Origin: a virus
IMG/VR virus record: IMGVR_UViG_3300022188_000226
Coordinates: 52,258-116,257 of that record
Direction: 5' to 3' (one strand)
Length of the DNA stretch: 64,000 nt
Positions 6,898-23,013 of this stretch are shown piece after piece (the stretch's first letter is position 1; every line of letters begins with the position of its first letter). Position numbers and translations under genes: made by a program. The notes beneath the pieces are model-generated. The model did no database searches. It saw only the letters and a program-made list of their open reading frames with translations, and was not told the origin of the DNA.

Positions 6898-6942
6898 TAA
6901 TCTTTCATTACTAATTATTAACATATCTTAATGAACAGATTT

Positions 6943-6981
6943 AGAGCCGCAATCCTCAGAGGGTTTCCGGGGTTAGGCTCT
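6943..6981 (+). terminator. Hairpin after the replication block
   Basis: AGAGCC (6943-6948) pairs with GGCTCT (6976-6981), with an inner CCTCAGAGG. No run of T follows, so it may be a terminator-like element or the structured left part of the adjacent TnpB remnant rather than a true terminator. Confidence 0.35.
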
Positions 6982-7008
6982 TGACAAGTTAGATTTAATA
7001 CTTATTAT
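6981..7008 (+). promoter_or_regulatory. Sigma70-like promoter upstream of the tnpB remnant
   Basis: TTGACA at 6981-6986, 16 bp spacer, TATTAT at 7003-7008. It matches the promoter form used elsewhere in the window and would transcribe the tnpB remnant, the 127 nt structured unit and the gene at 7289. Confidence 0.55.
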
Positions 7009-7039
7009 TAAAATAGATATTAAATTTACAGGATAATTT

Positions 7040-7267
7040 ATGATAACAAGAGAATTAAAATTACGATTAACGACCAAACAGAAAAATTTACTAAATCAAT
7101 AGTTATTTAATTTGACTGGAACGTATAACTGGGAATGCAGTGCTTGTGGGGCACAGCTCGATCGCGATCTTAATGGAGCTAGAAATATCTTCGTAAGATC
7201 TTTGGGAGATTCACTTGCACTGAAGAGAATGTTAACTTCCTCAGTGTGCATTGTTAATAATTGTTAA
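7040..7267 (+). pseudogene. Internally deleted tnpB remnant
   Basis: Starts MITRELKLRLTTKQ, an RNA-guided TnpB-like N-terminus, reaches an in-frame TAG at 7100-7102, then in the same frame jumps to the extreme C-terminus: WECSACGAQLDRDLNGARN, the second half of the zinc ribbon plus the RuvC-III aspartate region, then to a stop at 7265-7267. Roughly 300 residues of the usual protein are missing. The remnant keeps a CxxC pair that the longer copy at 21.6 kb lacks, so the two derive from different tnpB genes although their 3' ends are nearly identical. Not expected to be a functional nuclease. Confidence 0.8.
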
Positions 7268-7281
7268 CGAAAAAGAATTGG
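7155..7281 (+). repeat. 127 nt structured unit, copy A (tnpB 3' end plus element end)
   Basis: Nearly identical to 8442-8568 and 22890-23013, same orientation. Similarity starts exactly at the first base of an AGCTC/GAGCT stem and stops after the terminal GG. Predicted hairpins: AGCTC/GAGCT, ATCTT/AAGAT (7187-7199), CACTGAAGA/TCCTCAGTG (7218-7246, one mismatch) and GTTAA/TTAAC (7253-7268). Ends 7 nt before the ATG at 7289. Possible omega-RNA scaffold. Confidence 0.75.
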
Positions 7282-7288
7282 AAAAATT

Positions 7289-8224
7289 ATGACAGAAAAT
7301 GATATTAAGAATTTAAAAGAAATAAGAGAATTTTTAGAAAAAAACAATATTAAGTATAGTATTGAATTGGACAATTTTTGTTTGTTTTATGATGAGTGGC
7401 CAGAAAAAAGAAGATATGAAATAGAGTATGTGCGGGCATTAGATTTTCCTATAGAGTATCCAAAATATGATATAGGGGGAGTGAATAAGAATTACTTTTT
7501 TAATAAATCTATAGAAGCAGAGGAAAATAACTCGTTTAAGATGTGGATCAAAGATTTTGAGTGGGATGATGATAGGAAGAGACCTATATTGAAGTCACAA
7601 ATACTTCATGCTTATGGGATTACACCTTATAAATTCTATGCTCGTGAGTGTATTGTCAAAGAGGTAGGCACCAAAGAAGGAAGGGAATTCGAGGTTGAGA
7701 ATTGTTTTTATGGAAAAAGAGGGGCAAGTCTAAGTCTTGGTTTGTATTTGAAGAAGGATAAAAATGGTTTTAAAAAAGACACACTTCTTATGTTGTATAC
7801 ATTCGGCATGAATTTTTTTGGAAAAAGTAAAAACATGTTAGAAGTATTGCGAGTAGGTACTTTGAAAAAATCCTATGTTACTGGCGGTGCTTCTAAGTTG
7901 CTTAAACATTTTATTAAGAACTATGAAACAATTAAGATTGGTAAGCGTGATGTTGAAGTTTCTGTTTTAAAATTTTATAGCGATTATGACCATAATTTGG
8001 GGTCTAGTATGCAGGGGATAGGGTTTAAATTTCATAATTATTCCAAGGGGGGTTTTATGAATTATTGGGCCGAGAGTGGGGAAGTGCGGCATAGACAGCC
8101 AATGAAGCATAAGTGGGTGATGGCACAAATAGCTGATGGAAAATGTAGAAGTATTCCTAATGCAGGAGTTAAGACCTTCTTACTGGATGTTTCAACTTAT
8201 AAAAAAGAAGTCGGTATAACTTAA
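7289..8224 (+). CDS. Protein with a homing-endonuclease-associated C-terminal domain
   Basis: 311 residues, ATG 7 nt after the structured unit. The C-terminal half (about 170-290) has the order GGASKLLKHF, VSVLKFYSDYDHNLG, GIGFKFHNYSKGGFMNYW, which parallels the C-terminal domain of the nuclease at 17971 (GVASKFLTFF, FTFADRRWSDG, KIGFSYVSATVPNYWYF). That domain is common at the end of phage homing endonucleases. The N-terminal half shows no nuclease motif I can identify, so this may be a nuclease relic or a DNA-binding partner. It sits between two TnpB-derived units, so the whole 6.9-8.6 kb segment looks mobile. Confidence 0.6.
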   Translation: MTENDIKNLKEIREFLEKNNIKYSIELDNFCLFYDEWPEKRRYEIEYVRALDFPIEYPKYDIGGVNKNYFFNKSIEAEENNSFKMWIKDFEWDDDRKRPILKSQILHAYGITPYKFYARECIVKEVGTKEGREFEVENCFYGKRGASLSLGLYLKKDKNGFKKDTLLMLYTFGMNFFGKSKNMLEVLRVGTLKKSYVTGGASKLLKHFIKNYETIKIGKRDVEVSVLKFYSDYDHNLGSSMQGIGFKFHNYSKGGFMNYWAESGEVRHRQPMKHKWVMAQIADGKCRSIPNAGVKTFLLDVSTYKKEVGIT

Positions 8225-8269
8225 AATAATGTCTAAAAAATTAACATATTATTTATAGAAAGATCAGAA

Positions 8270-8303
8270 AGTCAATAATCACTATCCTAAAGGAGTAGTA
8301 GTT
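8270..8303 (+). repeat. Imperfect hairpin element, copy 1 (AGTCAATA...CCTAAAGG)
   Basis: Consists of AGTCAATA followed by an imperfect hairpin with loop core CCTAAAGG. The same arrangement is found at 48884-48917. It follows the stop of the gene at 7289. Possibly a subterminal hairpin of an IS200/IS605-type element or a terminator-like structure. Confidence 0.45.
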
Positions 8304-8321
8304 TTACGCCAGTTATATAAA

Positions 8322-8353
8322 AAGGTTTTTTGTAATTAATAGGTAAGAAAACC
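8322..8353 (+). terminator. Inverted repeat, terminator-like
   Basis: AGGTTTT (from 8323) pairs with AAAACCT (8347-8353) around an AT-rich loop. AT-rich stem without a strong T tract, placed between the stop at 8224 and the promoter at 8375, so it could end the upstream transcript. Confidence 0.35.
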
Positions 8354-8374
8354 TCAAATATTTTAAATTAACAC

Positions 8375-8403
8375 TTGACAAAAGCTTTTGCATGTATTAT
8401 ATT
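8375..8403 (+). promoter_or_regulatory. Strong sigma70-like promoter ahead of structured unit B and dnaJ
   Basis: TTGACA at 8375-8380, 17 bp spacer with TGTAT, TATATT at 8398-8403. The predicted transcript start near 8410 is followed by an AACTTTA/TAAAGTT hairpin (8414-8435) and then immediately by structured unit B. Confidence 0.75.
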
Positions 8404-8441
8404 ATAATTAATAAACTTTAACAAAGTCTAAAGTTATTTAA

Positions 8442-8568
8442 AGCTCGATCGTGATCTTAATGGAGCTAGAAATATCTTCGTAAGATCTTTGGGATATTCA
8501 CCCGCACTGAAGAAAATGTTAACTTCTTCAGCGTGCGTTGTTAATGATTGTTAACGAAAAAGGATCGG
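8442..8568 (+). repeat. 127 nt structured unit, copy B, without any tnpB reading frame
   Basis: Same unit as 7155-7281 and 22890-23013, all four stems retained; the third stem is CACTGAAGAA/TTCTTCAGCG (8505-8533) with one A-C mismatch at 8506/8532. No tnpB coding sequence precedes it; instead it starts about 30 nt after a strong promoter. It ends 9 nt before the GTG of the dnaJ-like gene, so it is also that gene's 5' leader. Confidence 0.75.
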
Positions 8569-8577
8569 TGATTTAAA

Positions 8578-9357
8578 GTGGGGCATTATAAAACGTTGGG
8601 TGTTAGTTCTCAAGCTACGCAAGAAGAAATAAAAAAAGCTTATCGTAATCTTTCTAAAGAACACCACCCAGATGTTGGTGGTAATGAAGAAATATTTAAG
8701 AGTGTGTCTGAGGCTTATTCGACTCTATCAGATGTTGAAAAACGTAGACAGTATGATAATCCTAATCCTTTTGATGGTATGTCTGGCGGTATGGGAGGGT
8801 TTCCGTTTGGTTTTCAAAGGCCTCGCCAACAGAAGCCTGACCTAAATGCACCAAAGGACGGACATTTTATAGGCGTAGAAGTGGAGTTACCTCTTAAGCA
8901 CTATGTTTTTGGTGGTAAATTTAAAATTAATTTAAATTATCATGAAGACTGTGCTGATTGTGGGGGTAAGGGTTTCAGTACTGGTACTGAATGTGATGTT
9001 TGTAATGGGGAAGGGTATGTACAACAAGTAGAAAGGAGGCCTGGTTTTATGTCCTCTGCAACACGTCCTTGTCATAAATGTGGGGGGCTGGGTCAAGTTT
9101 CTACTAATAAATGTGAGACATGCTCAGGAACTGGAAATCATTCAGTTATAGATAAAGAATTTATTTTTGATATCCCTAAAGGGTCAGGAATAGGTGCTAA
9201 AATAATACTTAGTGGTGTAGGTAGGGTTGGTATAAATGGTGGACGGAACGGAGATATTGGTATAATGATAACTAATATAAAACAACCAGTGTTAAATAAA
9301 CTATCCCCTGATAAAGTAGACATACTAAAAGACTTATTAGAAGAACTAGACGCTTAA
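8578..9357 (+). CDS. dnaJ: DnaJ-like co-chaperone, shortened
   Basis: 259 residues, against about 375 for bacterial DnaJ. J domain with the HPD motif (KEHHPDVGG at about residue 30), a Gly/Phe region (about 62-80), then a zinc domain with four CxxCxGxG-type repeats (CADCGGKG, CDVCNGEG, CHKCGGLG, CETCSGTG, about 123-185), and one short C-terminal beta domain instead of two plus the dimerisation segment. It should stimulate DnaK ATPase; no DnaK is in the window, so it probably recruits host Hsp70. Starts at GTG, behind unit B. A truncated class I J protein retained by a phage suggests a role in replisome or virion assembly. Confidence 0.9.
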   Translation: MGHYKTLGVSSQATQEEIKKAYRNLSKEHHPDVGGNEEIFKSVSEAYSTLSDVEKRRQYDNPNPFDGMSGGMGGFPFGFQRPRQQKPDLNAPKDGHFIGVEVELPLKHYVFGGKFKINLNYHEDCADCGGKGFSTGTECDVCNGEGYVQQVERRPGFMSSATRPCHKCGGLGQVSTNKCETCSGTGNHSVIDKEFIFDIPKGSGIGAKIILSGVGRVGINGGRNGDIGIMITNIKQPVLNKLSPDKVDILKDLLEELDA

Positions 9358-9402
9358 TTAGTCATACGTCTTCTGATAAATAATTTCAGGGGGTACTTGA
9401 CA

Positions 9403-9927
9403 ATGATACAAAGAGTGCTTAGTTTAGATATAGCAACAACTACTGGTTGGGCGTTTAATTTTGTTCAGACGATAGATAAGTTTGAGTATGGGTTGATAAA
9501 AACTAATTCTAAACATAGTGAAGGAAGAAGGTTGGCTTATTTTAGGAAAGAGTTAATAAAGCTTATCTCGAAATTTAACCCAACACATGTTGTTATAGAG
9601 GATATTTATTCCGGTATAAATGTAAAAACCATGAAGTTACTGGCTAAATACGCAGGGGTTGCTCAAGAATGTTGTGCGTCGTTTGCAAACATAGACCCAT
9701 ATATAATTCATACTAGTACAGTAAAGGCTTATTTTAAAGCTAAAAATAAAAGACAGTTATTTGATTTTGCAATTACTCTTTTAGATTGGGATACAAATGT
9801 AATAAGTTTTAAAAAACATAATGATATTGTGGATTCAATTTGTCAATTAATTTGTTATTGTGATAAAGTATTGGGTGTAAAAAAATGTAGAGAAGAAAAA
9901 GATTATGGGTATTTATATAAGTTATAG
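9403..9927 (+). CDS. ruvC: RuvC-like Holliday junction resolvase
   Basis: 174 residues from the ATG at 9403 (AGGGGGT about 9 nt upstream; a TTG at 9397 is the alternative). RNase H-like fold with the catalytic acids in order: LSLDIATTTGWA (D at about residue 7), HVVIEDIYSG (E at about 64), and KKHNDIVDSICQLIC (D residues at about 143-146). This is the RuvC pattern, used to resolve branched phage DNA before packaging. It is slightly separated from neighbours but in the same transcription direction. Confidence 0.82.
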   Translation: MIQRVLSLDIATTTGWAFNFVQTIDKFEYGLIKTNSKHSEGRRLAYFRKELIKLISKFNPTHVVIEDIYSGINVKTMKLLAKYAGVAQECCASFANIDPYIIHTSTVKAYFKAKNKRQLFDFAITLLDWDTNVISFKKHNDIVDSICQLICYCDKVLGVKKCREEKDYGYLYKL

Positions 9928-9961
9928 AGAAATTAAAGTTAACATTTATGTGGGGTATTAA

Positions 9962-11128
9962 ATGGCAAAAAATATTAAGCTTAGTGCTACAAGAATTAGT
10001 ACATTTCTGTCATGTAAGCAGAAATACTGGTTCAATTATTATGAGAAGTTACCTAAACTTTCTAATCCAGCGTTTAAATTAGGTTTAGCCGTTCATGAAT
10101 CACTCGAATTAGCAGGAAATATTTGGATGGAGAAAGAAAAGTTTAGTAAAGCAGATATCAAAAAAGTTATGGCGGAGTACGATAGGATATCTATTAGAGA
10201 AGGTATAGAAGAGTATTCTTCTCATCTAGAAGGTAAAGAGTTAGTTAAGAAAAGATTAAATAATTTTATTTCTGGCGAAAAACTTATAGGTTTAGAGACT
10301 AAATTTGGATTTTGGGGTAAGGACGCTGGACCACAAGTCACAAGTAAGTATGGTGTGCCACTAATAGGGGCAATTGATAAAGTCGAGAAGTATGATGAAG
10401 ATACTGTACTTATAGTAGACTATAAAACTTCTAAGACCGCACCGACACCTATTCAGATGAAAAGTGATATGCAGCTTTCAATTTATGATTTGGTAGCACG
10501 TCAAGTATGGCCTGGATATAAAAGGGTTGTGTTGGCTTTAGATTTATTGAAATCAGATGTTTTATATACATATAGAACTGACAAACAACGTGAAGAGTTT
10601 GAAGTTTATATTAAGGTTATCTATGATGAAATGTTAGCTTTTACAGAAGAGGAAGCAGCTGCTTCGTTGAATATGTTTTGTCCGTGGTGTTCTTATAAAG
10701 ATTATTGTTCTACTTATCAGAAAGCTTGTAAAAAATCTGACTATAAATTCTTACCAACTGTTGGTTATACGGATAATCAGTTGATTGAGGAGTGGGATAG
10801 TGTTAAATCTACCAAGAAAATTTTGGAGAACAGGGAGCGTGAGCTTGGAATGATCATGATGGAAAAAATTAGACGCACGTCAAATAATTTAAGGGGAGAC
10901 AAGAAAGAAATTTATGTACGACAGAACGCAAGAATAAATTATGATCTCAGTACAGTGGCAGAGAAAGTTCCAACAGAGGATTTTCCAAGTCTTGTTAATA
11001 TAAACAAAAGAGCTGTGGATGTATATTTGAATCTTAATCCAGCAGTAAAGGATGACATTATTGAAACAACTATTACAAATTATACATCTCCGTTTTTGGC
11101 TGGAAGGGATATAAAGAAAAGCAAATAA
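9962..11128 (+). CDS. RecB/Cas4-like PD-(D/E)XK exonuclease with probable Fe-S cluster
   Basis: 388 residues. N-terminal KLSATRISTFLSCKQKYWF carries the first cluster cysteine at about residue 18. A conserved H is in LAVHESLE at about 46. The nuclease motifs are at about 110-160: LIGAIDKV (D) and VLIVDYKTSK (D...K). The cluster cysteines follow at CPWCSYKDYC, about 239-248. This is the PDDEXK_1/Cas4/AddB nuclease arrangement, implying 5'-3' or end-processing exonuclease activity in recombination. No cas1 or cas2 and no CRISPR array are present, so a CRISPR role is unlikely. Confidence 0.85.
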   Translation: MAKNIKLSATRISTFLSCKQKYWFNYYEKLPKLSNPAFKLGLAVHESLELAGNIWMEKEKFSKADIKKVMAEYDRISIREGIEEYSSHLEGKELVKKRLNNFISGEKLIGLETKFGFWGKDAGPQVTSKYGVPLIGAIDKVEKYDEDTVLIVDYKTSKTAPTPIQMKSDMQLSIYDLVARQVWPGYKRVVLALDLLKSDVLYTYRTDKQREEFEVYIKVIYDEMLAFTEEEAAASLNMFCPWCSYKDYCSTYQKACKKSDYKFLPTVGYTDNQLIEEWDSVKSTKKILENRERELGMIMMEKIRRTSNNLRGDKKEIYVRQNARINYDLSTVAEKVPTEDFPSLVNINKRAVDVYLNLNPAVKDDIIETTITNYTSPFLAGRDIKKSK

Positions 11129-11171
11129 TAACTGCAATACAATTTTTTTAAAAGAAGTAAAGGAGAAGGGA

Positions 11172-13724
11172 ATGACAAAAAAGAATAAGAAACCTGCCAC
11201 AAAATTTTCACAACCAGTCCCCAAGAACAAGATTAAAGTATTAGCATACTGTGACTCCCCTACTTGTGCAACAGGTTTTGGAACAGTGTCACGTAATATT
11301 TTATTAGGTCTGTATTCTACTGGGCGTTATGATATTGACGTTCTTGGTATTAATTACTGGGGAGATCCACATAATCTTCCGTTCAGAATTTGGCCTACTG
11401 GTATTAACAGTGAACGAGATCCTTATGGTAGAAAGAAAGTATTTAAAATGATTCAGCAGATGGATTTTGATATTATATTTTTTTTGCAGGATACTTTTAT
11501 TTTAGATTTTTTACCTGAGCTTCAGAAGTCTCTTGTAGATCGTGGGAAGCCTTTTAAATCTATAGTTTATTATCCAGTGGACGGTGTGCCTAAAGAACAG
11601 TGGCTTCATAATGTAAATGCTTGTGATTTTCCTGTGGCGTATTCTGAATTTGGTAAAGCTGAGAGCATGCGTGTACTGCCTATAATGAAAGAGCCTCTGG
11701 TTGTCCCTCATGGAGCTAATACTAAAGATTTTTTTGTTGCAGATAAGAAAGATGTAATGTCTTTTAGGTCTCAATATTTTGGAAACCAGGCTGATAAGTT
11801 TATCCTTTGTAACCTTAATAGAAATCAGCAGAGAAAAGATATCCCTAGAACTATTGCTGCTTTCAAAGAATTTAAAAAACAGGTTCCTGAATCTCTTCTG
11901 TACTTGCATATGGCTAAACAAGATCAGGGGTGGAATTTGACTGATGTATGTAATTCTTTTGAGTTAGATATCACTAAAGATGTTATATTTCCTGAGAATT
12001 TTGGGCCTAATCAAGGGTATCCACGTAATATTGTTAATATGATATACAACGCCAGTGATTGTGTAATAAGCACAACTTTGGGCGAAGGTTGGGGTCTTTG
12101 CCTTCACGGTGATTCTAGTGTTATGACAGTATCTGGTCAAAAAAGAATTAAAAATATAGTAGTTGGAGATAATGTAGTGATTGCTGGAGATGCTTTTCCA
12201 GTTAATGGGGTAGAGTCGTCTAATCATACACAAGAGTTTAAAATTAAACTTTATAATAATCAAGAGCTTGTTGGTAGTGGTAATCATAAAGTACCTACTT
12301 GTGATGATGTGTATAAAAATTTATCAGAGATTTCAACTAATGACTGGTTGCTTGTTGATAAAGCTGTTTTGAAAGATGATGCTGGATATACTTATGATTT
12401 AAAATCGTTTGCAGATACTCATGATGATAATTTTGTTTGGAATAAGATGGGCTTTAGTCCAAGTGTAGAATGTTCTATTATGGCTATTATGGAGGCTACA
12501 AAAGAAACTAAGAAAATTATTGAAACAGCAATAAAAAATTACGATACAAATACAGATTCTTCCAGTAATAGAGTTAATAGTGTTATAAGTTATCTTGAGA
12601 GTATTTGGTATAAGAAAACTCAGCCAGTAAAAATGAATAGATATGTAGAGTTTGATAGTGATTTTGCGAGACTTCTTGGGTACTATGTTGCTGAAGGTAG
12701 CAATGAGTCAGGAAACGGTATAGAGTTTAGTTTTCATACTAAAGAAACAGTCTATCATGAAGATGTAAGTACACTTATAGAAAAGTATTTTGGAGTTAAA
12801 ACAATAATTAAAATTAAAGATAATAGATGTGCCGTCCGTGTACGTTCTTCTATACTTGCTAAATTTTTTGGAGATTTATGTGGTATCGGTTCTCATAATA
12901 AACATATTCCACTTCTTTGTATGCAACACAGAGATAAAGCTAAAGAGTTCATTAAAGGGGCTTGGCGTGGTGACGGACATTTTGGAGATGTTGAGTTTAG
13001 TTATTCAACAGCTTCTATTGTATTAAAAGAAGAGATGATGTGGTTATTATCTGGATTTAATATATTTTCCAAATGTAACAAAAATAAGGTAGGTAATTGG
13101 GCTATTTATGTTAATGGAAAAGACTATAATTTATTAGCCGAAGTGCTTGACCATACAAATAGTCATGATAATTACAGAGAACGTAGTTACATTAAGAAGC
13201 ATGATAATTTCTTTATGGTTAAAGTAAAAAGTACATCTTGTGAAGAGATAAATAGTACATATTACGATATAAGTGTAGATAGTAAGAGGCACTTTGTTGT
13301 TAATGGTATTGTTGTTCATAATTCTTGGATCGAGGCTATGGCTACTAAAACTCCAGTGATTATGCCTGCAAATACAGCGTTGGTTGAAAATATTACTGAA
13401 GATAGAGGGTGGTTATGTAAGAGTGGGTCAGACCCTTCTTTGTTTACAGTTGTACCTAATGATAACGAAGTCATTAGACCTTTGGTAGATGTTAATGATA
13501 TGGTATGTCAAATGCTTGAGGTTTATAATAATCCAGATGAGGCTACTCGTCGTGCAGAAAATGCGTATAACTGGATTCATGCAAAAATGGATTGGGGTTC
13601 TGGTGTAGTACCTAAGTGGATTACTGTTTTTGATGATGCTTATAATCGTCTTTCAGATGAGAGTAATAACACAGTTGATGAGGGTGTGTCTGGAAATAAA
13701 GTTATTGACTCTGAGGCATTCTAG
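11172..13724 (+). CDS. GT4-type glycosyltransferase interrupted by one intein
   Basis: 850 residues, of which 408 are intein (separate entry); the spliced protein would have 442. The extein begins with KVLAYCDSPTCATGFGTVSR, contains VVPHGANTKDFF and the nucleotide-sugar-binding GT4/GT-B part FILCNLNRNQQRKDIPRT, then NASDCVISTTLGEGWGL joined after splicing to SWIEAMATKTPVIMP, the E-x7-E motif region of retaining GT4 enzymes. It probably adds a sugar to a virion or host glycan. AAAGGAGAAGGG precedes the ATG. First gene of the carbohydrate block. Confidence 0.88.
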   Translation: MTKKNKKPATKFSQPVPKNKIKVLAYCDSPTCATGFGTVSRNILLGLYSTGRYDIDVLGINYWGDPHNLPFRIWPTGINSERDPYGRKKVFKMIQQMDFDIIFFLQDTFILDFLPELQKSLVDRGKPFKSIVYYPVDGVPKEQWLHNVNACDFPVAYSEFGKAESMRVLPIMKEPLVVPHGANTKDFFVADKKDVMSFRSQYFGNQADKFILCNLNRNQQRKDIPRTIAAFKEFKKQVPESLLYLHMAKQDQGWNLTDVCNSFELDITKDVIFPENFGPNQGYPRNIVNMIYNASDCVISTTLGEGWGLCLHGDSSVMTVSGQKRIKNIVVGDNVVIAGDAFPVNGVESSNHTQEFKIKLYNNQELVGSGNHKVPTCDDVYKNLSEISTNDWLLVDKAVLKDDAGYTYDLKSFADTHDDNFVWNKMGFSPSVECSIMAIMEATKETKKIIETAIKNYDTNTDSSSNRVNSVISYLESIWYKKTQPVKMNRYVEFDSDFARLLGYYVAEGSNESGNGIEFSFHTKETVYHEDVSTLIEKYFGVKTIIKIKDNRCAVRVRSSILAKFFGDLCGIGSHNKHIPLLCMQHRDKAKEFIKGAWRGDGHFGDVEFSYSTASIVLKEEMMWLLSGFNIFSKCNKNKVGNWAIYVNGKDYNLLAEVLDHTNSHDNYRERSYIKKHDNFFMVKVKSTSCEEINSTYYDISVDSKRHFVVNGIVVHNSWIEAMATKTPVIMPANTALVENITEDRGWLCKSGSDPSLFTVVPNDNEVIRPLVDVNDMVCQMLEVYNNPDEATRRAENAYNWIHAKMDWGSGVVPKWITVFDDAYNRLSDESNNTVDEGVSGNKVIDSEAF
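12099..13322 (+). other. Intein 1 with LAGLIDADG endonuclease (in glycosyltransferase at 11172)
   Basis: 408 codons. Cys1 follows GEGWGL; ends VVHN before Ser+1. Block A-like CLHGDSSVMTVSGQKRIKNI, block B GSGNHKV, endonuclease motifs LLGYYVAEGS and FIKGAWRGDGHF both with acidic residues, C-terminal YYDISVDSKRHFVVNGIVVHN-type blocks F and G. All splicing residues are present, so splicing and endonuclease activity are both plausible. Confidence 0.93.
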
Positions 13725-13737
13725 TAAAAATTAGTAA

Positions 13738-13756
13738 TATATATATATATATATTA
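13738..13756. repeat. Short (AT)n run
   Basis: About ten AT dinucleotides between two genes, ending in TATTATAAT, which could serve as a -10 element although no matching -35 is evident. Confidence 0.6.
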
Positions 13757-13802
13757 TAATTAAAAAGGAGAGGTGGTAATTTTTTTTTGCCGTGAAAATT
13801 TT

Positions 13803-14375
13803 ATGGAAACTAAGATTATACAAGAAGTTGGATATAATGAGGCTATACAAGGAATAGGTTATAGTTTTGGAGTTAACGATAAGGACCGTTTAAAATTGAT
13901 TGCTGAAAAATTATCTTTAAAAGATGGTGGACATAATAAATTTCTAGAGTCCATGATGGTATGGGTCGATATAAATGCCCCAAGATATTTTTGGAGTGAG
14001 TTTGATACGTATCGCGTTGGTACAACTAAACAATCACAAAGTACTATACACACTATTACATACCGTACTCTAAAACAAGATGATTTTGAGCACGAAGTTT
14101 ATGAACACACATTGATTTCTCTTAATAAATCTATAGTGGCATATCAACATACTGAATTAAAAGAAAAAAAGCATAAACTATTTATGGAAATTAAAAACAA
14201 TTTACCAGAAGGATTTTTGCAGCGACGAATGGTTTGTACTAATTATAAAGTATTAAAGAATATTATTTTACAGAGAAAAAATCATAAATTAAAAGAATGG
14301 GGTGTTTTTATTAGTGCTTTGTTAGATCAATTACAGTTTCCGCATTTTGTTACTAAATTTAAGGAGAAGGATTAA
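13803..14375 (+). CDS. thyX: ThyX-like (FAD-dependent thymidylate synthase family) protein, divergent
   Basis: 190 residues from ATG 13803. The start is uncertain: the AAGGAG at 13765-13770 fits an ATT at 13779 (8 nt) far better than the ATG, and a GTG at 13773 is too close. Family features are APRYFWSEFDTYRVG with a TTKQSQS stretch (where ThyX has RHR...S) and NLPEGFLQRRMVCTNY followed by LKNIILQRKNHKLKEWGVF, matching the ThyX C-terminal pattern of a loop, N/R-rich helix and AQxE-like helix. It would make dTMP, fitting the dCMP deaminase, dUTPase and ribonucleotide reductase of this phage. The classical RHRxxS motif is not intact, so catalysis is not assured. Confidence 0.6.
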   Translation: METKIIQEVGYNEAIQGIGYSFGVNDKDRLKLIAEKLSLKDGGHNKFLESMMVWVDINAPRYFWSEFDTYRVGTTKQSQSTIHTITYRTLKQDDFEHEVYEHTLISLNKSIVAYQHTELKEKKHKLFMEIKNNLPEGFLQRRMVCTNYKVLKNIILQRKNHKLKEWGVFISALLDQLQFPHFVTKFKEKD

Positions 14376-17300
14376 TGGAGATAAAAGGGATAAAGTATAC
14401 GGGTCCGGTATTTGATGGGTCAGGTTATGCCCAAGCAGTTAGAGGAAATATAATGGCTTTACATAAACTGGGGGTACCTTTAACTGTAAACTCCATATCA
14501 TTCGAACACTTAAGACCTGAGTTAGGTGTGGTTGGTAAAGTTATAAACAAGTTAGTGGATAAAAAAATAGATTATAATATTAATATAATTCATACAACTC
14601 CAGAATTTTGGGAGAATCATAAAGAAGAGGGTAAATTAAATATCGGTTACACAATTTGGGAAACTACTAAACTTCACCACAAATGGCCTGGTTATATTAA
14701 TGACAATGTCGATGCAATCATGGTGGGCAGTGAATGGAATGTTGGTGTATTCAAAGATAGCGGTGTAACTGTACCGATTTTTGTAGTACCTCACGGAATA
14801 GGACAACATGAATTTGATAATATTGAGAAATTTGAAGTTAAAGGTGTGTCAGATGAGACGTATATGTTCTATAGTATTTTTCAATGGGTTGAGCGAAAAC
14901 ACCCTCTTTCTCTAATTAAAGCATATTGGCATGCTTTTCAGAACAAAGAAGACGTAGCTTTGGTGCTTAAAACATATCGTAGTGATTATAGTGATCAGGA
15001 AAAAGAGGCTATCAGGACTACGATAAGAAGATTGAAACAAGTAACACCATTTGATAACTATCCTCCTATTTATCTTATTCCTAACATGCTAACTAATGAC
15101 GAAATTTTTGGACTACATGCTAGAGGTGATTGTTACACTAGTTTGGATCGCGGGGAAGGATTTGGCCTTTGTGTAGCTCAAAATACTAATATAACAACTC
15201 CTTCCGGTATTAAACTAGCTGAAGATATTATAGAGGGGGATTTGACTTTATCTATGGGGGGTAAGTTTAACAAAGTTACAGCTACCTCTAAGAGATATGT
15301 TGAAAAGGCATTACGTGTATCTATAAAATTACATGAAGCTCTTGTGGTTAGTCATGAACATCCTTTTTATGTTACTAAAGATTTGTCGACATGGAAAAGA
15401 TACAATTATTCACCGTCCACGATAGAAGATGCACTTGAGTGGTCAGAGGCGTCTAACATAGTAGTTGGAGATTATGTTGCGGTTCCTAAACCTAAACTTA
15501 ATAACAAATTGATAGATAAAATTGATATAAGTGATTATTTAGATTTAGAGGGAGTTGTTGTTGAGGACGAATATATCTTTTTAAAGCATGGGTATTCCCC
15601 TAAAAATACTAAAAATAGTTATAAAAATTTAGTAGATAAATACGGATTTACAAAGAAAATTTTTGAAACGGCAGTATCACATATTAAAAATAATACTGTT
15701 CCTAAGATTGGTACAAGTGCACATAATGCTTATACTATTTTATTGAAAATAGAGTATGAGGTTAAGAAACCAAATAGAATTAAACGTTTTATCGACTTAG
15801 ATAGTAATTTATTAAAATTGTTTGGTTGGTATTTAGCTGAAGGAAGCACTAACAATAGAACTTTTTTAGAGATAGATCTACACAAAGACGAATTTGATGT
15901 TGCAAAGAGCCTTTCAGATATATTTAAACAGTATTTCTCTGTTAGTGTTGATTCTATATATACTAGTATAAATGGAAATAAATCGAGGTTAATAGTAAGT
16001 AGTAAAATAATAGCTTCCTTATTTGAATCTCTGTTCGGTAAAGGAGCTAGGAATAAACATATACCAGACTGGCTTATTTATTCAAGCCAATCTTTATTGC
16101 CTCTAATTAAAACATTGTTTTTTGGGGATGGTTATGACTCAGGGAATACTTATGCATTAACTACAGTTTCTCCTAGTTTAGCTTATCAGGTTAAGACTGT
16201 ACTAAATAGTTTGGGGATGTGTCCTAGAATAAATAAAGGGAAACGAGGAGAATTAGGAAATTATGATCAATATATAGTCAGTGTAGCTAATGAAGATTAT
16301 AAAATATTTACTGAGAATACTATTACTAAAGAATACAAAAAACATAGTGTAGAAACTGAAAATTATTTTCTAGTAAAAGTAACTAATATTGAAGAGATAA
16401 AATATAATGATTATATGTATGATTTTACTATAAATGGTGCTGAAAGTTTTGTAGGGAATGGTATATTATTACATAATTGTCCTTTTACTGCTGGGGCTTG
16501 TGGAAATCCAGTAATTATTACTGGGTTTGGTGGTATTACAGAATACGCTAAAGAAGATAACAGTTATCTTGTTGACTACACACTGACTCCAGTGTTTGGG
16601 ATGCCTTGGAGCGGTTCTCCAATAATTTCAATAGGTTGCATCGATGGATATAAGAAGATAAAGGATGTAAAAGAAGGTGACTTGGTTTTTAATAAGAATG
16701 GTAAAATAAAAAGTGTAACAAAGGTTGGAGATCGACCAATGCTTCCTGATGAAAGGATGCACTCTATTAAACATGGGTCTATGCATACTAGTATAGAGGT
16801 AACAAATAAACATAAATTATATATTGCAAAGAATAATAAGTCAGTACTAGCTGAAGTAGAAGATATTACTGATGAGGATTATCTAATTATACCAAAGCCA
16901 TTTTTGTATTCAGAAAATTTCTCTATTAATATGAAGGATTATACTTTGACAGATGTTTGGAGTGAAGAGGCCGGTAGAATAGTTTATAATAGAGATGTTG
17001 ATGTTTCCACTGGTATTTATAGCACTGTAGAATTGTCTGAGGATATGTTTTATTTAATTGGTTTATATTTAGCAGAAGGATGTGTGTATTCTTCCAACGA
17101 TTGTGTTAGTTTTTCTTTTAATTCTAACGAAATTGATACGTTAGCTGCTGAGTGTAAGAAATGTTTATCTTCAGTTTTTGGTATATCTTCAGAACATTTT
17201 CATGAGCGTGAGTATAAGGATAGAAATGGTTATGAGCTTATTGTAAACAATACACTTATAGGAAGATTTTTTAGAAATGAATTTGGTACAGGAGCACATG

Positions 17301-17971
17301 ATAAGTTTATACCTTATAGATGGAGATTACATACAAATGATAACTATAGAATTCGATTATTAAAGGGGTATTGGGATGGGGATGGGCACATTAGTTATAG
17401 ACATAAAAATCAAAATGCTCCGGAGTACTCTGCTTCATCTTGTTCAGAAAACCTTATGTTGTCTATACGTGATTTAGTAATAAGTTTAGATGTGATACCG
17501 TCGTTAACAATAAATATTAGATCTGATGGGCGTATTAGTTATATTATGACTGTAACAGACCCAGTATTTGATAAACTGTTTGGTGTGAAATGTAAAAGAA
17601 ATAAACGTACATCTTATTGTTATAAAATTGATGATCACCATTTTGCTGTACGTGTCAAGAGTAACGTTGTTATGAAAGATTATAAAGACCCTGTTTATAG
17701 TTTATCTGTGGAGCCTGGAGACGACGAAGACATTGAGCATGGCGGTAGTTACATATTAAACGGGGTTGCTTCTAGTAACTCACCGTGGTATAGGGGATCA
17801 CAACTGTGGGCTGAAGTTAGCGTTAAACACGGTGCCGATTTGATGTATAATGCATACGAAAATCGACAGGAAGCCAAAGATAAAGGGTTATTATTACAGA
17901 AATATATATATAAGAATTTTGAGTGGGAAGTAATAGGACAGAAAATAGTAGATGGGATTAGGAGTTTGTAG
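14375..17971 (+). CDS. GT4-type glycosyltransferase interrupted by two inteins
   Basis: 1198 residues; removing inteins of 436 and 390 residues leaves 372. Extein: GIKYTGPVFDGSGYAQAVRG, IGYTIWETTKLHHKWPGYI, VPHGIGQHEF, then HARGDCYTSLDRGEGFGL joined to CPFTAGACGNPVIITGFGG, then GMPW joined to SPWYRGSQLWAEVSVKHG. The GEGFGL...GxP region is the donor-binding E-x7-E motif of GT4 enzymes. It is a paralogue of the glycosyltransferase at 11172 and its first intein occupies the same position. Overlaps the ThyX-like gene by 1 bp. Acceptor unknown; probably builds the same glycan. Confidence 0.88.
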   Translation: MEIKGIKYTGPVFDGSGYAQAVRGNIMALHKLGVPLTVNSISFEHLRPELGVVGKVINKLVDKKIDYNINIIHTTPEFWENHKEEGKLNIGYTIWETTKLHHKWPGYINDNVDAIMVGSEWNVGVFKDSGVTVPIFVVPHGIGQHEFDNIEKFEVKGVSDETYMFYSIFQWVERKHPLSLIKAYWHAFQNKEDVALVLKTYRSDYSDQEKEAIRTTIRRLKQVTPFDNYPPIYLIPNMLTNDEIFGLHARGDCYTSLDRGEGFGLCVAQNTNITTPSGIKLAEDIIEGDLTLSMGGKFNKVTATSKRYVEKALRVSIKLHEALVVSHEHPFYVTKDLSTWKRYNYSPSTIEDALEWSEASNIVVGDYVAVPKPKLNNKLIDKIDISDYLDLEGVVVEDEYIFLKHGYSPKNTKNSYKNLVDKYGFTKKIFETAVSHIKNNTVPKIGTSAHNAYTILLKIEYEVKKPNRIKRFIDLDSNLLKLFGWYLAEGSTNNRTFLEIDLHKDEFDVAKSLSDIFKQYFSVSVDSIYTSINGNKSRLIVSSKIIASLFESLFGKGARNKHIPDWLIYSSQSLLPLIKTLFFGDGYDSGNTYALTTVSPSLAYQVKTVLNSLGMCPRINKGKRGELGNYDQYIVSVANEDYKIFTENTITKEYKKHSVETENYFLVKVTNIEEIKYNDYMYDFTINGAESFVGNGILLHNCPFTAGACGNPVIITGFGGITEYAKEDNSYLVDYTLTPVFGMPWSGSPIISIGCIDGYKKIKDVKEGDLVFNKNGKIKSVTKVGDRPMLPDERMHSIKHGSMHTSIEVTNKHKLYIAKNNKSVLAEVEDITDEDYLIIPKPFLYSENFSINMKDYTLTDVWSEEAGRIVYNRDVDVSTGIYSTVELSEDMFYLIGLYLAEGCVYSSNDCVSFSFNSNEIDTLAAECKKCLSSVFGISSEHFHEREYKDRNGYELIVNNTLIGRFFRNEFGTGAHDKFIPYRWRLHTNDNYRIRLLKGYWDGDGHISYRHKNQNAPEYSASSCSENLMLSIRDLVISLDVIPSLTINIRSDGRISYIMTVTDPVFDKLFGVKCKRNKRTSYCYKIDDHHFAVRVKSNVVMKDYKDPVYSLSVEPGDDEDIEHGGSYILNGVASSNSPWYRGSQLWAEVSVKHGADLMYNAYENRQEAKDKGLLLQKYIYKNFEWEVIGQKIVDGIRSL
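15170..16477 (+). other. Intein 2 with LAGLIDADG endonuclease (first intein of GT at 14375)
   Basis: 436 codons. Cys1 after GEGFGL, ends LLHN before Cys+1. Block B VVSHEHPF, endonuclease motifs LFGWYLAEGS and KTLFFGDGYD with both acids, C-terminal YMYDFTINGAESFVGNGILL. Insertion site is equivalent to that of intein 1. Confidence 0.93.
16610..17779 (+). other. Intein 3, Ser1 type, with LAGLIDADG endonuclease (second intein of GT at 14375)
   Basis: 390 codons. Starts Ser1 (SGSPIISIGCIDGYKKI) after GMPW; ends VASSN before Ser+1, so the penultimate His is replaced by Ser. Block B EVTNKHKL. Endonuclease motifs LIGLYLAEGC and KGYWDGDGHI keep both acids. Serine as first nucleophile and no penultimate His make it the least canonical of the set, but the flanking extein reads through cleanly. 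Confidence 0.88.
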
Positions 17972-19569
17972 TGACAAAACGATTAACATTAGATTTTGTA
18001 AAAAGTTCTTTTGAAAAAGAAGGTTATACTCTGTTATCCAAGGAATATAAATCTGTAAAAGTTAAACTTAAATATGTTTGCCCAAAAGGGCATGTCCATG
18101 AGATTGGTTGGTCTGAGTGGAATTCAAAGAGAAAACATAGATGCCCTTATTGTGCTAATAATGCTGCTCTTAATATAGATATAATTAGAGAAGAATTTTT
18201 AACATCTAATTATGAATTGTTGGATACAGTATATATTAATTCAAAACAGTCCTTTAAATATAGGTGCGATAATGGTCATGTAAATAGTATGCGGATAGAC
18301 CATTTTAGACGTGGAATAAGGTGTCCTTTTTGTTCAGGCTTTATTAAAAAATCTATAAATGAAGTACGGGAAATAATTGAGTCAGAAGGTTATAAGTTGC
18401 TATCTGATGAGTATAAGAATGTACATACAAAATTATTAGTACAGTGTAAGAAACGGCATCAGTATAAAGTATCTTTTCATAGCTGGTTACAAGGAAGCCG
18501 ATGCCCTTATTGTAATGGTGGAATTAGGGCTAACTTTGATGATATTAAAGCCTCTATCGAGGAGGAAGGATATGCACTATTAACTGATAATTATGAGAAT
18601 TCAAATCAAGTACTTGAATTAATTTGCCCAAATGGGCATCATTACAATGTTGCGTGGAATAATTGGAAACATAAAGGGTCTAGATGTACAGAATGCTCTG
18701 GAAAAGGTTCATCGATTAATGAGGAGGCTATAAAAGAATTTATTTCAGATTTAGGTATTGAATTTATATCTAATGACAAACAACTTATAGCCCCATATGA
18801 ATTAGACATAGTAATCCCATCTAAAAAGATTGCTATAGAGTATTGTGGATTATATTGGCATTCAGAAAATATGGGAAGAGATAGAAATTATCATTTAAAT
18901 AAACTTAATATGTGTATAACTAAAGGATATAGACTACTAACTATATTTGAAGATGAATTTTTAGATAATAAACAAATGGTATTTTCCAGACTTCTCAATA
19001 TACTTAATGTTACTAATAATTTAAAGAGAATATACGCAAGGAAATGTAAAATAATGCCTATACCTGTACCGGAAGCTAGAACGTTTTGTATAGAAAATCA
19101 TATGCAGGGGTATACAGGCTCATCTATAAAGCTTGGAGCATTTTATAAAGGGCAGTTAGTGTCAGTAATGATGTTAGCTAAACCGTCAATTGCTAAAGGG
19201 TATAAGAAACAAGTTGATGGTGTATATGAGCTTAGTAGGTTTTGTTCGAAAAAGGAGCATATAGTAGTTGGGGTTGCTTCTAAATTTCTTACTTTTTTTA
19301 AAAAAAATTATCAATGTAGTTCGATATTTACATTTGCAGATCGTAGATGGTCTGACGGTAATTTATATGAAAAAATTGGTTTTAGTTATGTGAGTGCCAC
19401 TGTTCCAAATTATTGGTATTTCAAAAATAAAAAGCGATTACATAGGTTTGCTTTAAGAAAAACTAAAAATGACCCAATAGAATTGACAGAGAGAGAAATT
19501 AGGAAACAAGAAGGTTGGAATAGAATTTGGGACTGTGGTAATTTGAAATATGCTATGGAGGTAATATGA
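17971..19569 (+). CDS. Freestanding homing endonuclease: four zinc-ribbon repeats plus EDxHD/VSR-type nuclease
   Basis: 532 residues from GTG, overlapping the two-intein gene by 1 bp. Four tandem repeats of about 55-65 residues (about 1-235), each of the form EGYxLLSxEYxN...CPxGHxH...W...RCPYC, are zinc-ribbon DNA-binding modules. A nuclease core follows at about 240-330: ELDIVIPSKKIAIEYCGLYW, RDRNYHLNKLNMC, YRLLTIFEDE, the EDxHD family arrangement known from I-Bth0305I-type phage enzymes. The C-terminal domain (about 350-520) has ADRRWSDGNLYEKIGF. It probably cuts intein- or gene-free alleles and spreads this locus. Confidence 0.85.
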   Translation: MTKRLTLDFVKSSFEKEGYTLLSKEYKSVKVKLKYVCPKGHVHEIGWSEWNSKRKHRCPYCANNAALNIDIIREEFLTSNYELLDTVYINSKQSFKYRCDNGHVNSMRIDHFRRGIRCPFCSGFIKKSINEVREIIESEGYKLLSDEYKNVHTKLLVQCKKRHQYKVSFHSWLQGSRCPYCNGGIRANFDDIKASIEEEGYALLTDNYENSNQVLELICPNGHHYNVAWNNWKHKGSRCTECSGKGSSINEEAIKEFISDLGIEFISNDKQLIAPYELDIVIPSKKIAIEYCGLYWHSENMGRDRNYHLNKLNMCITKGYRLLTIFEDEFLDNKQMVFSRLLNILNVTNNLKRIYARKCKIMPIPVPEARTFCIENHMQGYTGSSIKLGAFYKGQLVSVMMLAKPSIAKGYKKQVDGVYELSRFCSKKEHIVVGVASKFLTFFKKNYQCSSIFTFADRRWSDGNLYEKIGFSYVSATVPNYWYFKNKKRLHRFALRKTKNDPIELTEREIRKQEGWNRIWDCGNLKYAMEVI

Positions 19570-20054: not shown

Positions 20055-21040
20055 ATATAACATTAATCGGTTTAGGTTATTGGGGACCTAACTTACTAAG
20101 AGTTCTTAATAAAATAGGGGCATTACGATCAGCATACGATTTGGATGTGGAAAAGGTTAATAAATTCTCACACGATCCTTCTTATAAACACATAGAATTT
20201 GGGACAGACTACAAAGACGCTTTGACAGATGATATAGACGCTGTTGTTATAGCTACGCCCCCAAGTACCCACCATACTATAGCTGTCGAGGCTATGAAGT
20301 CCGGTAAACATGTTTTTATAGAGAAGCCTATGACATTAGATGTCTACGAAGCAGAAGATCTTACAAAAATGGCTAAAGCGTTAGGCCTTATTCTTATGGT
20401 GGGGCATATCTTTCTATATGTGCCTGAAGTTATAAAAATAAAAGACATAATAGATTCCGGTGAATTAGGTGATATTGTGTATATTCATGCATCGAGATTA
20501 AATCTGGGAAAATTTCAAAAGGCCAATGTAGTTTCTGATTTAGCTCCACATGATATATCTATATTCAATTTTCTAACTGATGATGATGTAGTTAGGGTGC
20601 ATGCAAATGGTTATGGTTTTGTGAAGAAAGAAGTAGTTGAAGTAGCTAAGATAACTTTAGAGTATTCTCGTGGTATGGTGTGTGATCTTCATCTCAGTTG
20701 GTTGGATCCTAGAAAAAAGCGAGTTACTACTATAGTTGGTACGGAGAAGATGTTAGTGTACAACATGTTAGCTGAAGAGAAAATTAAAATATATAATAAG
20801 GGTGTTGACATACAAGATACTAGTGATCATGCTGCTTATATGTTGGCGTACAGACATGGAGATGTCTATTCTCCTTACACAGAAGTGTGGGAGCCTTTAC
20901 AAAAAGAATGTGAATGTTTTATAGAATGTATAAACAAAAAAGAATCACCACTCACTGATGGAGCAAATGGTGTGGCTGTAGTAAAGGTTTTAGACGCGGC
21001 TCTTAGTTCTTTAGAGACAGGTGGTTGGGTAACCCTCTAG
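20051..21040 (+). CDS. Gfo/Idh/MocA-family NAD(P)-dependent sugar oxidoreductase (WbpB-like)
   Basis: 329 residues. Rossmann motif ITLIGLGYWGPNLLR at residue 3, then AVVIATPPSTHHTIAVEAMKSGKHVFIEKP cut here as ATPPSTHH and GKHVFIEKPM, the Gfo/Idh signature with the catalytic EKP lysine at about 97, and DLAPHDISIFNFL with the catalytic His region at about 180. In WbpB/WlbA this fold oxidises C3 of a UDP-N-acetyl-glucuronate. A transaminase (29138) and an acetyltransferase directly downstream complete such a route. Confidence 0.9.
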   Translation: MNITLIGLGYWGPNLLRVLNKIGALRSAYDLDVEKVNKFSHDPSYKHIEFGTDYKDALTDDIDAVVIATPPSTHHTIAVEAMKSGKHVFIEKPMTLDVYEAEDLTKMAKALGLILMVGHIFLYVPEVIKIKDIIDSGELGDIVYIHASRLNLGKFQKANVVSDLAPHDISIFNFLTDDDVVRVHANGYGFVKKEVVEVAKITLEYSRGMVCDLHLSWLDPRKKRVTTIVGTEKMLVYNMLAEEKIKIYNKGVDIQDTSDHAAYMLAYRHGDVYSPYTEVWEPLQKECECFIECINKKESPLTDGANGVAVVKVLDAALSSLETGGWVTL

Positions 21041-21056
21041 AAAGGTAATTAAAAAT

Positions 21057-21530
21057 ATGGTTATGGCAATAGATAACGATGTTGTAATAGGTAAAGGCAC
21101 TAAACTGTGGTTTCGTGATAAATCAAATATATATGGGTGTAGGATAGGTAATAATTGTAACATAGGTACCTTAGTAGAGATAAGAAAAGGTGTAATCATA
21201 GGTGATGATTGTAAGATTCAAGCCTTTACTTTTATACCTGAAGGAATTAGTATAGGTAATCGGGTTTTTATTGGTCCACATGTTTGTTTTACTAATGATA
21301 AATATCCCAGAGTTGTTGGTAAATGGGATGAATTAAAAACAATAGTGGAAGATGATGCTAGTTTAGGGGCAGGTTCAATTATTTGTCCCGGTGTTACTGT
21401 AGGGAAGGGAGCTATGGTGGGTGCAGGATCAGTTGTAACTAAAGATGTTCCGGCCTTCACATTAGTTGTAGGTAATCCAGCTAGAATCGTAAGGTTAGTA
21501 CATAGTAAACCTTTCATTATCGATCTTTAA
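21057..21530 (+). CDS. Left-handed beta-helix N-acetyltransferase (WbpD/WlbB-like)
   Basis: 157 residues of hexapeptide repeats: VVIGKGTKLWF, NIYGCRIGNNCNIGTLVEI, VIIGDDCKI, ISIGNRVFIGPHVCFTND, KYPR, then SLGAGSIICPGVTVGKGAMV, GAGSVVTKDVPAFTLVVGNPA. The FTNDKYPR segment after the GPHV turn is typical of WbpD/WlbB, which N-acetylates a 3-amino-uronic-acid nucleotide sugar using acetyl-CoA. Works with the oxidoreductase just upstream. A generic WbbJ-type acetyltransferase is the alternative. Confidence 0.85.
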   Translation: MVMAIDNDVVIGKGTKLWFRDKSNIYGCRIGNNCNIGTLVEIRKGVIIGDDCKIQAFTFIPEGISIGNRVFIGPHVCFTNDKYPRVVGKWDELKTIVEDDASLGAGSIICPGVTVGKGAMVGAGSVVTKDVPAFTLVVGNPARIVRLVHSKPFIIDL

Positions 21531-21545
21531 TATATCTTAATAAAT

Positions 21546-21574
21546 TAACCTTCTTAGTATAAAGAGGCTATAAT
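21546..21574 (+). promoter_or_regulatory. Possible promoter upstream of tnpB
   Basis: TTAACC at 21546-21551, 17 bp spacer, TATAAT at 21569-21574. The -10 is perfect, the -35 poor. It would serve the tnpB gene at 21628. Confidence 0.4.
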
Positions 21575-21627
21575 TCAAATAAGATACTAGAATTACATTC
21601 TAAAAACGGAATCATGGTAAAGGAGAT

Positions 21628-22999
21628 ATGACGTTAATGATATCAGAAGTGGATTCAACTATAAGCGAAAAGGGTTGCAATCCATTCTTCGACGAGCAAT
21701 GTCAGGAGAGGCAATCAAACTTGTTTCTGCCTATAGAGATAGAATCACAAGATTTAGCATTGAACTCATCTCACTTGCTATTAAAGAAAATGGTGGAGAA
21801 CTCGTGGTTTTCAACTAAGCTACTTTATCCGCGGAACAAAAACTTACAGCAGACTTACTTAACATCTTGCACGTCTTCTCCTGCAGAATGCGTGTTTATA
21901 AAAAGCAAGTCTGTGAGACTTTATCCAACCAAAAGTCAAGTTAAACTCTTCAAATGCTGGTTAGATTGTTCAAGATATGTTTATAACTGGACCATAGATT
22001 TCTTAAAATCTTGTATAGGATTTAATCTTAGTTGGATGACTATTAAGAAATATGCTACAAAGTTACTTCCTAAATGGACTAAAGCAATACCATTTCAAGC
22101 CAAAGGGATTGCTATTAGAGAAGCTCATAAAGCGTTTTGGGCAGCTAAAGGTCGCCCTAAATTTAGGAGCAGAAAAAAGCCTTTACAATCTTGTTACATA
22201 CCTAAATCAGCTATTTCTGATAAAGGAATTTATTCAAGAATATCCGGTAAAGGTTTAATTTTTAAAGAAGTTTTACCAGAACAACTTATGGACAGCAGAT
22301 TAGTTTTTCAATATAATCAATGGTTTTTGTCCGTACCCAGTAATCACACAAATCGTGTAGCCGATAACCAAGGGCACGGAATTGTGGCTTTAGATCCTGG
22401 GATACGAACATTTCAAACTTTTTATTCTGAAACAAGTGCTGGACATATTGGGCAATATGATATTGGTAGAATTAATAGGTTGTGTTATTATTTAGACAAT
22501 TTGATTTCAAGAACTTCTAAAGTTTTTGGAAACAAAAAGAAACGAATGAAACTTGCTCAAGATAGAATTCGTTTAAAGATTCAAAATTTAGTTAAAGAGT
22601 TGCATCATAAAACAGCTTATTTTTTAGTAAATAACTTCGATGTAATATTGTTACCGACATTTGGTGTTAAACAGATGAGTAAAAAAATCTAGTAAGTTAA
22701 GATCTAAAACTGTTCGTCAAATGCTAACTTGGTCCCATTATAAATTCAAAATGTTCTTGAAAAACAAGGCATTAGAGTTTGGGAAGATTGTTATAGAAGT
22801 TTGTGAAGCTTATACTTCTGTGACAGAAAGTTGGTCAGGTAAAATAGTAAATATTGGAGGATCTAAAGTTATTGGCTCGGGCAAAATAAAGCTCGATCGC
22901 GATCTTAATGGAGCTAGAAATATCTTCGTAAGATCTTTGGGAGATTCACCCTCGCTGAAGAAATTAATATCTTCAGCGTGCGTTGTTAATAATTGTTAA
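21628..22999 (+). pseudogene. tnpB: tnpB, frameshifted at an A7 run
   Basis: Frame 1 (21628-22692) has an N-terminal extension with NPFFDEQCQERQ and NSWFSTKLLYPRNKNL, as seen in some TnpB groups, then VRLYPTKSQVKLFKCW, the RuvC-I motif GIVALDPGIRTFQTF at about residue 250 and a KTAYFLVNNFDVILLPTF strand. The frame is lost in an A7 tract near 22680. Dropping one A restores KKSSKLRSKTVRQMLTWSHY and reads on to 22999 with DRDLNGARNIFVRSLGDSP (RuvC-III). At the zinc-ribbon positions the pattern is TESWSG...IGSG, without the usual cysteines. It is a pseudogene, a slippage-expressed gene, or a sequencing error in a homopolymer. Confidence 0.88.
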
Positions 23000-23013
23000 C
23001 GAAAAAGGATCGG
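22890..23013 (+). repeat. 124 nt structured unit, copy C (3' end of tnpB)
   Basis: Same unit as 7155-7281 and 8442-8568 with a 3 nt deletion in the third hairpin loop. The third stem is perfect here: CGCTGAAGA (22953-22961) with TCTTCAGCG (22970-22978). The G-C pair 22954/22977 replaces the A-T pair of copy A. Ends 10 nt before the ATG at 23024. Confidence 0.78.

Follow-up and report, generated by a model that had tools for sequence, protein, structure and literature searches.

Several described systems resemble the locus reported here. The guide RNA (reRNA, also called omega-RNA) of the IS607-type element ISXfa1 is located at the tnpB 3' end, terminates at a GG and comprises stem-loops and a pseudoknot in which an apical loop pairs with the five bases preceding the guide, the crossover at GG having been published for the same element (PMC10711439). 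A pseudoknot of the same kind is present in the ISDra2 scaffold. RAGATH-18 RNAs are also reRNAs of IS607 TnpBs, but they are independent of the coding sequence (PMC11061315). The pro-Fanzors, in turn, are TnpBs that share an active-site fingerprint (DPG plus an alternative glutamate) with the Fanzors, and were described as exclusively cyanobacterial among prokaryotes (PMC10711439). The present analysis concerns three copies (A, B and C) of a short repeated unit in a 64,000-nucleotide (nt) stretch of phage DNA, hereafter the window, which corresponds to bases 52258-116257 of the 116,257-base IMG/VR virus record IMGVR_UViG_3300022188_000226, the phage being sampled by this record and one partial close relative. 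The three units are IS607-type tnpB 3' ends with an reRNA scaffold that stops at the GG terminus of the element:

7155..7281, plus strand: unit A, tnpB 3' end and reRNA scaffold with the terminal GAATTGG (match to covariance model R1 at 7202-7281, 43.9 bits; pair check)
8442..8568, plus strand: unit B, reRNA scaffold preceded by almost no tnpB sequence and forming the right end of the A-B insertion (R1 match at 8489-8568, 43.6 bits; pair check)
22890..23013, plus strand: unit C, tnpB 3' end and reRNA scaffold (R1 match at 22937-23013, 59.9 bits)

A previous examination of the DNA letters (the sequence-only reading) had described the units as a near-identical triplicate in one orientation, which is indeed the case (88-91% identity over 124-127 aligned nt, same strand), and had interpreted them as guide-RNA scaffolds at the right end of a tnpB transposon, an interpretation that holds. 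The covariance search it had proposed was carried out with a model, R1, for which 20 relatives from bacteria and phages, and no window sequences, were used. In the 116-kb record this model recovered A, B and C only (E 1e-10 to 6e-7), with every match ending exactly at the unit end. As expected of an reRNA, the scaffold shares sequence with the 3' end of tnpB and runs up to the right end of the element. No known reRNA family in Rfam 15, nor any other of its families, matched the unit, and no RAGATH-18 match was found in the window or in five relatives. A, B and C are also the only full copies in the record, a further 27-nt partial match corresponding to the conserved LDRDLN codons of another tnpB. 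The sharp edges attributed to the units need a partial correction. The right edge, at the shared ...GG, is a transposon end, with weak similarity between B and C continuing for about 10 nt beyond it; the left edge is not an RNA boundary, since in A it marks the point of recombination with another tnpB, sharp because a D-type tnpB is joined there to a C-type 3' end at the shared DRDLN codons, and the similarity of B and C reaches further upstream into tnpB sequence, with a deletion. The tnpB frame (LDRDLNGARNIFVRSLGDS...VNNC*) is open across the three units, whose sole length difference is one whole codon, and covers each of them up to a stop about 14 nt before the unit end. As the units are mostly coding, their identity is by itself no proof of selection on RNA.

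The insertion boundaries were revealed by two relatives (L010 and L011) from which the entire segment comprising A and B is absent:

6887..8568, plus strand: IS607-type insertion of 1682 bp, with GG at 6885-6886 and 8567-8568
6887..6936, plus strand: left end of the insertion, immediately following GG (identity to the C left end 81% over 53 nt, to that of a tnpB-less Parabeggiatoa copy 80% over 40 nt)
7036..7181, plus strand: remnant of a second (D-type, zinc-finger) tnpB fused to a C-type 3' end (85% and 94.5% identity to tnpB D)
7289..8224, plus strand: cargo open reading frame (ORF) of 311 amino acids (aa), homing-endonuclease-like (tblastn)
8375..8403, plus strand: promoter of phage type, TTGACAAA-N-TGTATTATATTATAAT, preceding B; the record contains five such near-identical sites
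8578..9357, plus strand: dnaJ-like gene downstream of B (Pfam DnaJ, DnaJ_CXXCXGXG, DnaJ_C)

In L010 and L011 the gene preceding dnaJ ends with ...GGGAGG-TWATATAA and dnaJ begins immediately. In the window the same upstream gene is broken after GGGAGG (6885-6886) and resumes past the terminal GG of B, and joining the two flanks rebuilds its tail (FEWEVI*), followed by dnaJ. These empty sites mean that A and B do not constitute two loci, contrary to their earlier description as independent tnpB ends; A is the inner and B the outer right end of a single insertion, which contains, in order, the left end, the chimeric tnpB remnant, right-end copy A, the cargo ORF and right-end copy B. The D-type pieces of the remnant correspond to the 5' 98 nt and to a 55-nt zinc-finger stretch of tnpB D, the copy used for comparison being the intact gene just upstream of the window (L006:1524-2657). 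In the relative L005 the same chimeric fusion is an open 74-aa frame with a 3' part of the C version, from which it follows that the copies have recombined. The cargo ORF had no Pfam match, and by tblastn its family is present in 237 phage records, the best match being annotated as "putative homing endonuclease"; it is multi-copy in several phages and occupies 11 places per Campylobacter phage.

Unit C closes a second remnant of the same kind of transposon:

21495..23013, plus strand: element C, 1519 bp, between GG 21493-21494 and GG 23012-23013, with a left end like that of A
21633..21890, plus strand: tnpA remnant, serine recombinase catalytic domain, N-terminus missing, one internal TAA (PF00239 match 37-127, E 1.3e-6, over the cut-off)
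21628..22692, plus strand: 5' part of the C-type tnpB, its frame opening inside the tnpA remnant (HTH_OrfB, OrfB_IS605; RuvC-I DPG)
22721..22999, plus strand: 3' part of the C-type tnpB, with the alternative RuvC-II Glu (CEAYTS), the RuvC-III Asp and no zinc finger (PF07282, TNB domain)

Joining the flanks of C gives the tail of an upstream acetyltransferase-like gene (RIVRSLKDE*). The tnpA remnant is probably that of an IS607 element and is overlapped in a different frame by the tnpB 5' ORF. Of a serine-recombinase TnpA with an N-terminal DNA-binding domain, as expected in this family, C retains only the piece with the catalytic domain, and in Vibrio phage F88 a resolvase-domain ORF lies beside tnpB. 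The two tnpB ORFs constitute one gene frameshifted at an A7 run near 22681. No intact cognate TnpB is encoded in the record, which holds only the frameshifted C gene, the chimeric remnant and the different-type TnpB D.

The C tnpB, used as protein or DNA query in IMG/VR and phages, gave no close-range match, and its relatives were found with an alignment query, first in Vibrio phages, a Microcoleus phage and a Trichormus plasmid, and then in 80 bacterial and 6 viral loci; as the query lacked the finger and the set was collected by similarity to it, its frequencies are not those of a census. RuvC-I reads DPG in 89/93 of these relatives, the canonical RuvC-II glutamate position is P in 92/92, and a glutamate is found six residues before the zinc-finger position in 91/92. 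The complete fingerprint of DPG and alternative glutamate is present in the window C and in 86 of the 91 relatives with readable sites, including 28/30 of the non-cyanobacterial or viral ones (isolates of Thiobaca, Allochromatium and Chromatium among them), and the CxxC zinc finger is absent from C and from 87/91 relatives. LPTFG in C was considered as a lost RuvC-II glutamate and rejected, as the catalytic glutamate of this type is the alternative one (CEAYTS), which C retains; position 346 is E in 86/92 relatives. In three relatives (L093, from the Microcoleus phage, L132 and L175) K or R replaces E at a conserved position three residues past the canonical glutamate site, which is probably non-catalytic. 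Judged by its sequence motifs, C encodes a pro-Fanzor-type TnpB without a zinc finger. The features in common with pro-Fanzors are the DPG in RuvC-I, P at the canonical glutamate position, a glutamate six residues before the former zinc finger and a tnpA probably of IS607 type (PMC10711439). The loss of the finger and the distribution of the relatives (Beggiatoaceae, Chromatiaceae isolates, Chloroflexi and phages) are different, and by the published pattern C would not be a pro-Fanzor member. That pattern demanded a zinc finger, and finger-less relatives would therefore escape it. The nearest relatives of the C TnpB, 56-64% identical, are found in Thioploca, Parabeggiatoa and Thiomargarita, and this similarity of the elements hints at a possible Beggiatoaceae host for the phage.

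Insertion at GG without target duplication was observed in three comparisons, the A-B insertion with L010/L011, element D with the exact empty site of L005, which lacks it, and Vibrio phages with and without an element, whose junctions read TAGGGG|TAAATC...ACTATCGG|TTTC (F100) and TAGGGG|TTTC (1.187.O). Nearly every relative ends with ...AAA(n)ATCGG, and the window units end alike (GAATTGG in A). The Vibrio junctions and this common terminus show that the unit end is a transposon end and that insertion takes place at GG. Inverted similarity between the left and right ends of the elements is weak; to our knowledge, IS607 elements have no terminal inverted repeats. Element D itself lies just left of the window (G000:C1:50486-51645, L006:1487-2646) and is a GG-bounded IS607-type element with an intact TnpB of 369-377 aa in which neither RuvC-II glutamate is present, the canonical one (T in the ungapped alignment) or the alternative one, making a nuclease-dead, TldR-like protein possible.

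The RNA structure was examined in the family and then located in C:

22943..22947, plus strand: 5' arm of the pseudoknot, GATTC, pairing with 23007-23011 (GGATC); family covariation
22953..22978, plus strand: hairpin P2, the third stem of the sequence-only reading; covariation above 2000 shuffles
22983..23002, plus strand: hairpin P3, the fourth stem of that reading; 98.3% of cells paired in 20 relatives

A GG[T/G/C]..[A/C/G]CC hairpin and a GAT[A/T]C/G[T/A]ATC pseudoknot show 95.6% pairing in the 40 distinct relatives compared. Double-changed cells number 23, the shuffles giving 5.4 and none of 500 reaching the observed value, and sliding the pairing partners lowers the pairing to 32-48%. The pseudoknot, in which the loop of a short hairpin within the tnpB coding sequence pairs with the five bases before GG, was absent from the earlier four-hairpin drawing. 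Two of the four drawn hairpins, P2 and P3, are conserved family-wide; the first and second stems were rejected, as their pairing is not conserved (22.8% and 40.8% of cells paired, respectively). The window-type clade folds GATCTTA with TAAGATC instead, as seen by eye in close relatives. The series A-T, A.C and G-C noted in the third stem (7219/7245 in A, 8506/8532 in B, 22954/22977 in C) had been read correctly, and the suggestion of compensatory change in that stem is supported by the P2 covariation, the anchor of which is crude and left 11 sequences unanchored. Folding gave z-scores of -0.86 for A, -3.56 for B and -4.20 for C. All three units have a G.A at the third hairpin pair. The pseudoknot is kept in C and A and broken in B, the outer pair, G-C in 40/40 relatives, being G.U in A and T.C in B. 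The family thus resembles ISXfa1 in its position, terminal GG, stem-loops and pseudoknot, and differs in that the pseudoknot loop lies inside the tnpB coding sequence and that, in the phage, the partner TnpB is decayed.

Another reading would be that the units are conserved solely because they encode the TnpB C-terminus, the folds being incidental. The frame open through all three units, with a length difference of a whole codon, would agree with this. However, pairing follows synonymous choice, the third base of a T/S codon varying with the V/G codon (GTA with ACA/TCA for V; GGA with ACC/TCC/AGC for G), and the last, non-coding bases pair with the coding loop. Copies without any tnpB also keep their pseudoknots (38/40, see below), and a purely coding explanation, already contradicted by these tnpB-less copies, is hardly credible.

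These tnpB-less copies belong to the metagenome-assembled genome of Parabeggiatoa sp. nov. 2 (G007; example loci L219-L296), in which R1 gives 81 matches vs 12 TnpB matches, some of the latter being pieces of one gene; intact TnpBs are also encoded there. Most of the 81 matches were retrieved and 60 strictly parsed, of which 54 lack upstream tnpB similarity, 45 of them having been checked over at least 400 nt upstream. The tnpB-less copies have 54 different flanks and represent 40 distinct scaffolds, 38 of them with all pseudoknot pairs, and alternate between GATTC/GAATC and GATAC/GTATC and between GGT/ACC, GGG/CCC and GAG/CTC. In most of nine examined left edges, GG is followed by TT.....ATAGTA or a close variant, as in the phage left ends. 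The copies look like elements of the MITE (miniature inverted-repeat transposable element) type that keep a complete guide scaffold free of coding constraint, and they indicate that stand-alone reRNA units exist in related bacteria; no description of the set was found in the open-licence papers searched. Ends kept, transposase genes lost and many copies are traits that MITE-like derivatives have in common with the Parabeggiatoa set and the phage A-B insertion. What differs is that the end kept here is a complete, covarying guide-RNA scaffold, and that the phage insertion holds a homing-endonuclease-like gene between two right ends.

In the proposed model, the right end of the intact relatives would be transcribed as the 3' part of an reRNA made of a small hairpin, whose loop forms the pseudoknot with the five bases before the terminal GG, and two more hairpins; after processing, this scaffold would be bound by TnpB and followed by a guide drawn from the DNA flanking the element. 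C would be a decayed autonomous element, and A and B would both belong to one non-autonomous insertion bearing the homing-endonuclease-like gene, as its inner and its outer right end, respectively, with the guide function presumably lost in the phage. It is very probable that the units are IS607 right ends kept mainly as transposon ends and tnpB debris, and not a set of guides evolved by the phage. Some points weigh against this account. Part of the unit conservation is protein constraint, since the unit also codes; the boundaries of C rest on left-end similarity and a plausible joined frame, no homologue of the acetyltransferase-like gene that could provide an empty site being present in L010-L012; an assembly error could account for the frameshift in C; and the phage-like promoter of B, together with a fold more stable than shuffles, would fit a retained RNA.

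The last point is the starting one for an alternative in which B, and perhaps A, would be a stand-alone guide RNA made from a phage promoter and acting in trans with a TnpB that the host or a co-infecting element supplies, for example in cutting phages without the insertion. Unit B does have almost no tnpB upstream and, in agreement with the sequence-only reading, lies about 35 nt behind a promoter that matches a five-member set (TTGACAAA...TGTATTATATTATAA; window 8375, 54276, 54573 and 58239, and L007:18134), likely a phage promoter class, one member of which precedes the tRNA cluster. Intact tnpB-less scaffolds are common in Parabeggiatoa, which also has intact TnpBs, and the Beggiatoaceae proteins are close to that of C, as described above. 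Against this, the scaffold of B is not intact (T.C at the outer pseudoknot pair, G.A in the hairpin). The G replaced by T belongs to a pair that is G-C also in 40/40 distinct tnpB-less Parabeggiatoa scaffolds, and in ISXfa1 the disruption of a single pseudoknot pair left <10^-4 of the wild-type activity (PMC10711439). An intact cognate TnpB is missing from the record, and none of the A, B and C flanks, taken as guides, has a good second match in it. Because the broken, uncompensated pair is invariant in the relatives, B is unlikely to be a working guide, and the trans-acting alternative as a whole is considered improbable.

The same promoter offers B another possible role, that of a structured 5' leader regulating dnaJ, which had also been suggested. 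From its position, the promoter probably drives transcription of B into the dnaJ message, and promoter, unit and GTG start codon do follow each other in an order compatible with a leader, the start lying 9 nt from the unit; A and C likewise end 7-10 nt before a start codon. The regulatory part of the suggestion is not supported: the transposon right end, which elsewhere precedes unrelated genes, accounts for the structure, L010 and L011 are leaderless, with dnaJ beginning right at the stop of the gene before it, and no riboswitch or thermosensor family was matched. There would be only a slight chance that B acts in this way, and its retention as the outer right end of the A-B insertion is preferred.

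Other features of the window include a phage transfer-messenger RNA at 55694-56064 (Rfam, 89 bits), beside three tRNAs at 54727, 54828 and 55470. Glycosyltransferase-like genes at 11172-13724 and 14375-17971 carry apparent intein-like insertions (one and two, respectively), seen by eye in the translations, and a 532-aa protein encoded at 17971-19569 has zinc-finger (CapR, DUF4379), weak MTES_1575 nuclease and Mom-like domains.

In summary, the vague repeat can now be defined as the right end and guide-RNA scaffold of a TnpB branch that has been little described and has the active-site fingerprint of the eukaryotic Fanzors, and this finger-less branch is documented in gammaproteobacteria and phages, in contrast with the cyanobacterial exclusivity reported for the fingerprint in prokaryotes. 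A tentative and rather doubtful extension would be that the IS607-type elements of giant sulfur bacteria and of their phages have split into a small number of TnpB genes and numerous mobile tnpB-less reRNA units with their own guides, a dispersed library that would serve a single TnpB in trans and of which the phage unit B, behind its phage promoter, would be a viral entry. The existence of at least 45 tnpB-less, pseudoknot-keeping copies in one genome makes the trans action of TnpB with dispersed guides testable.

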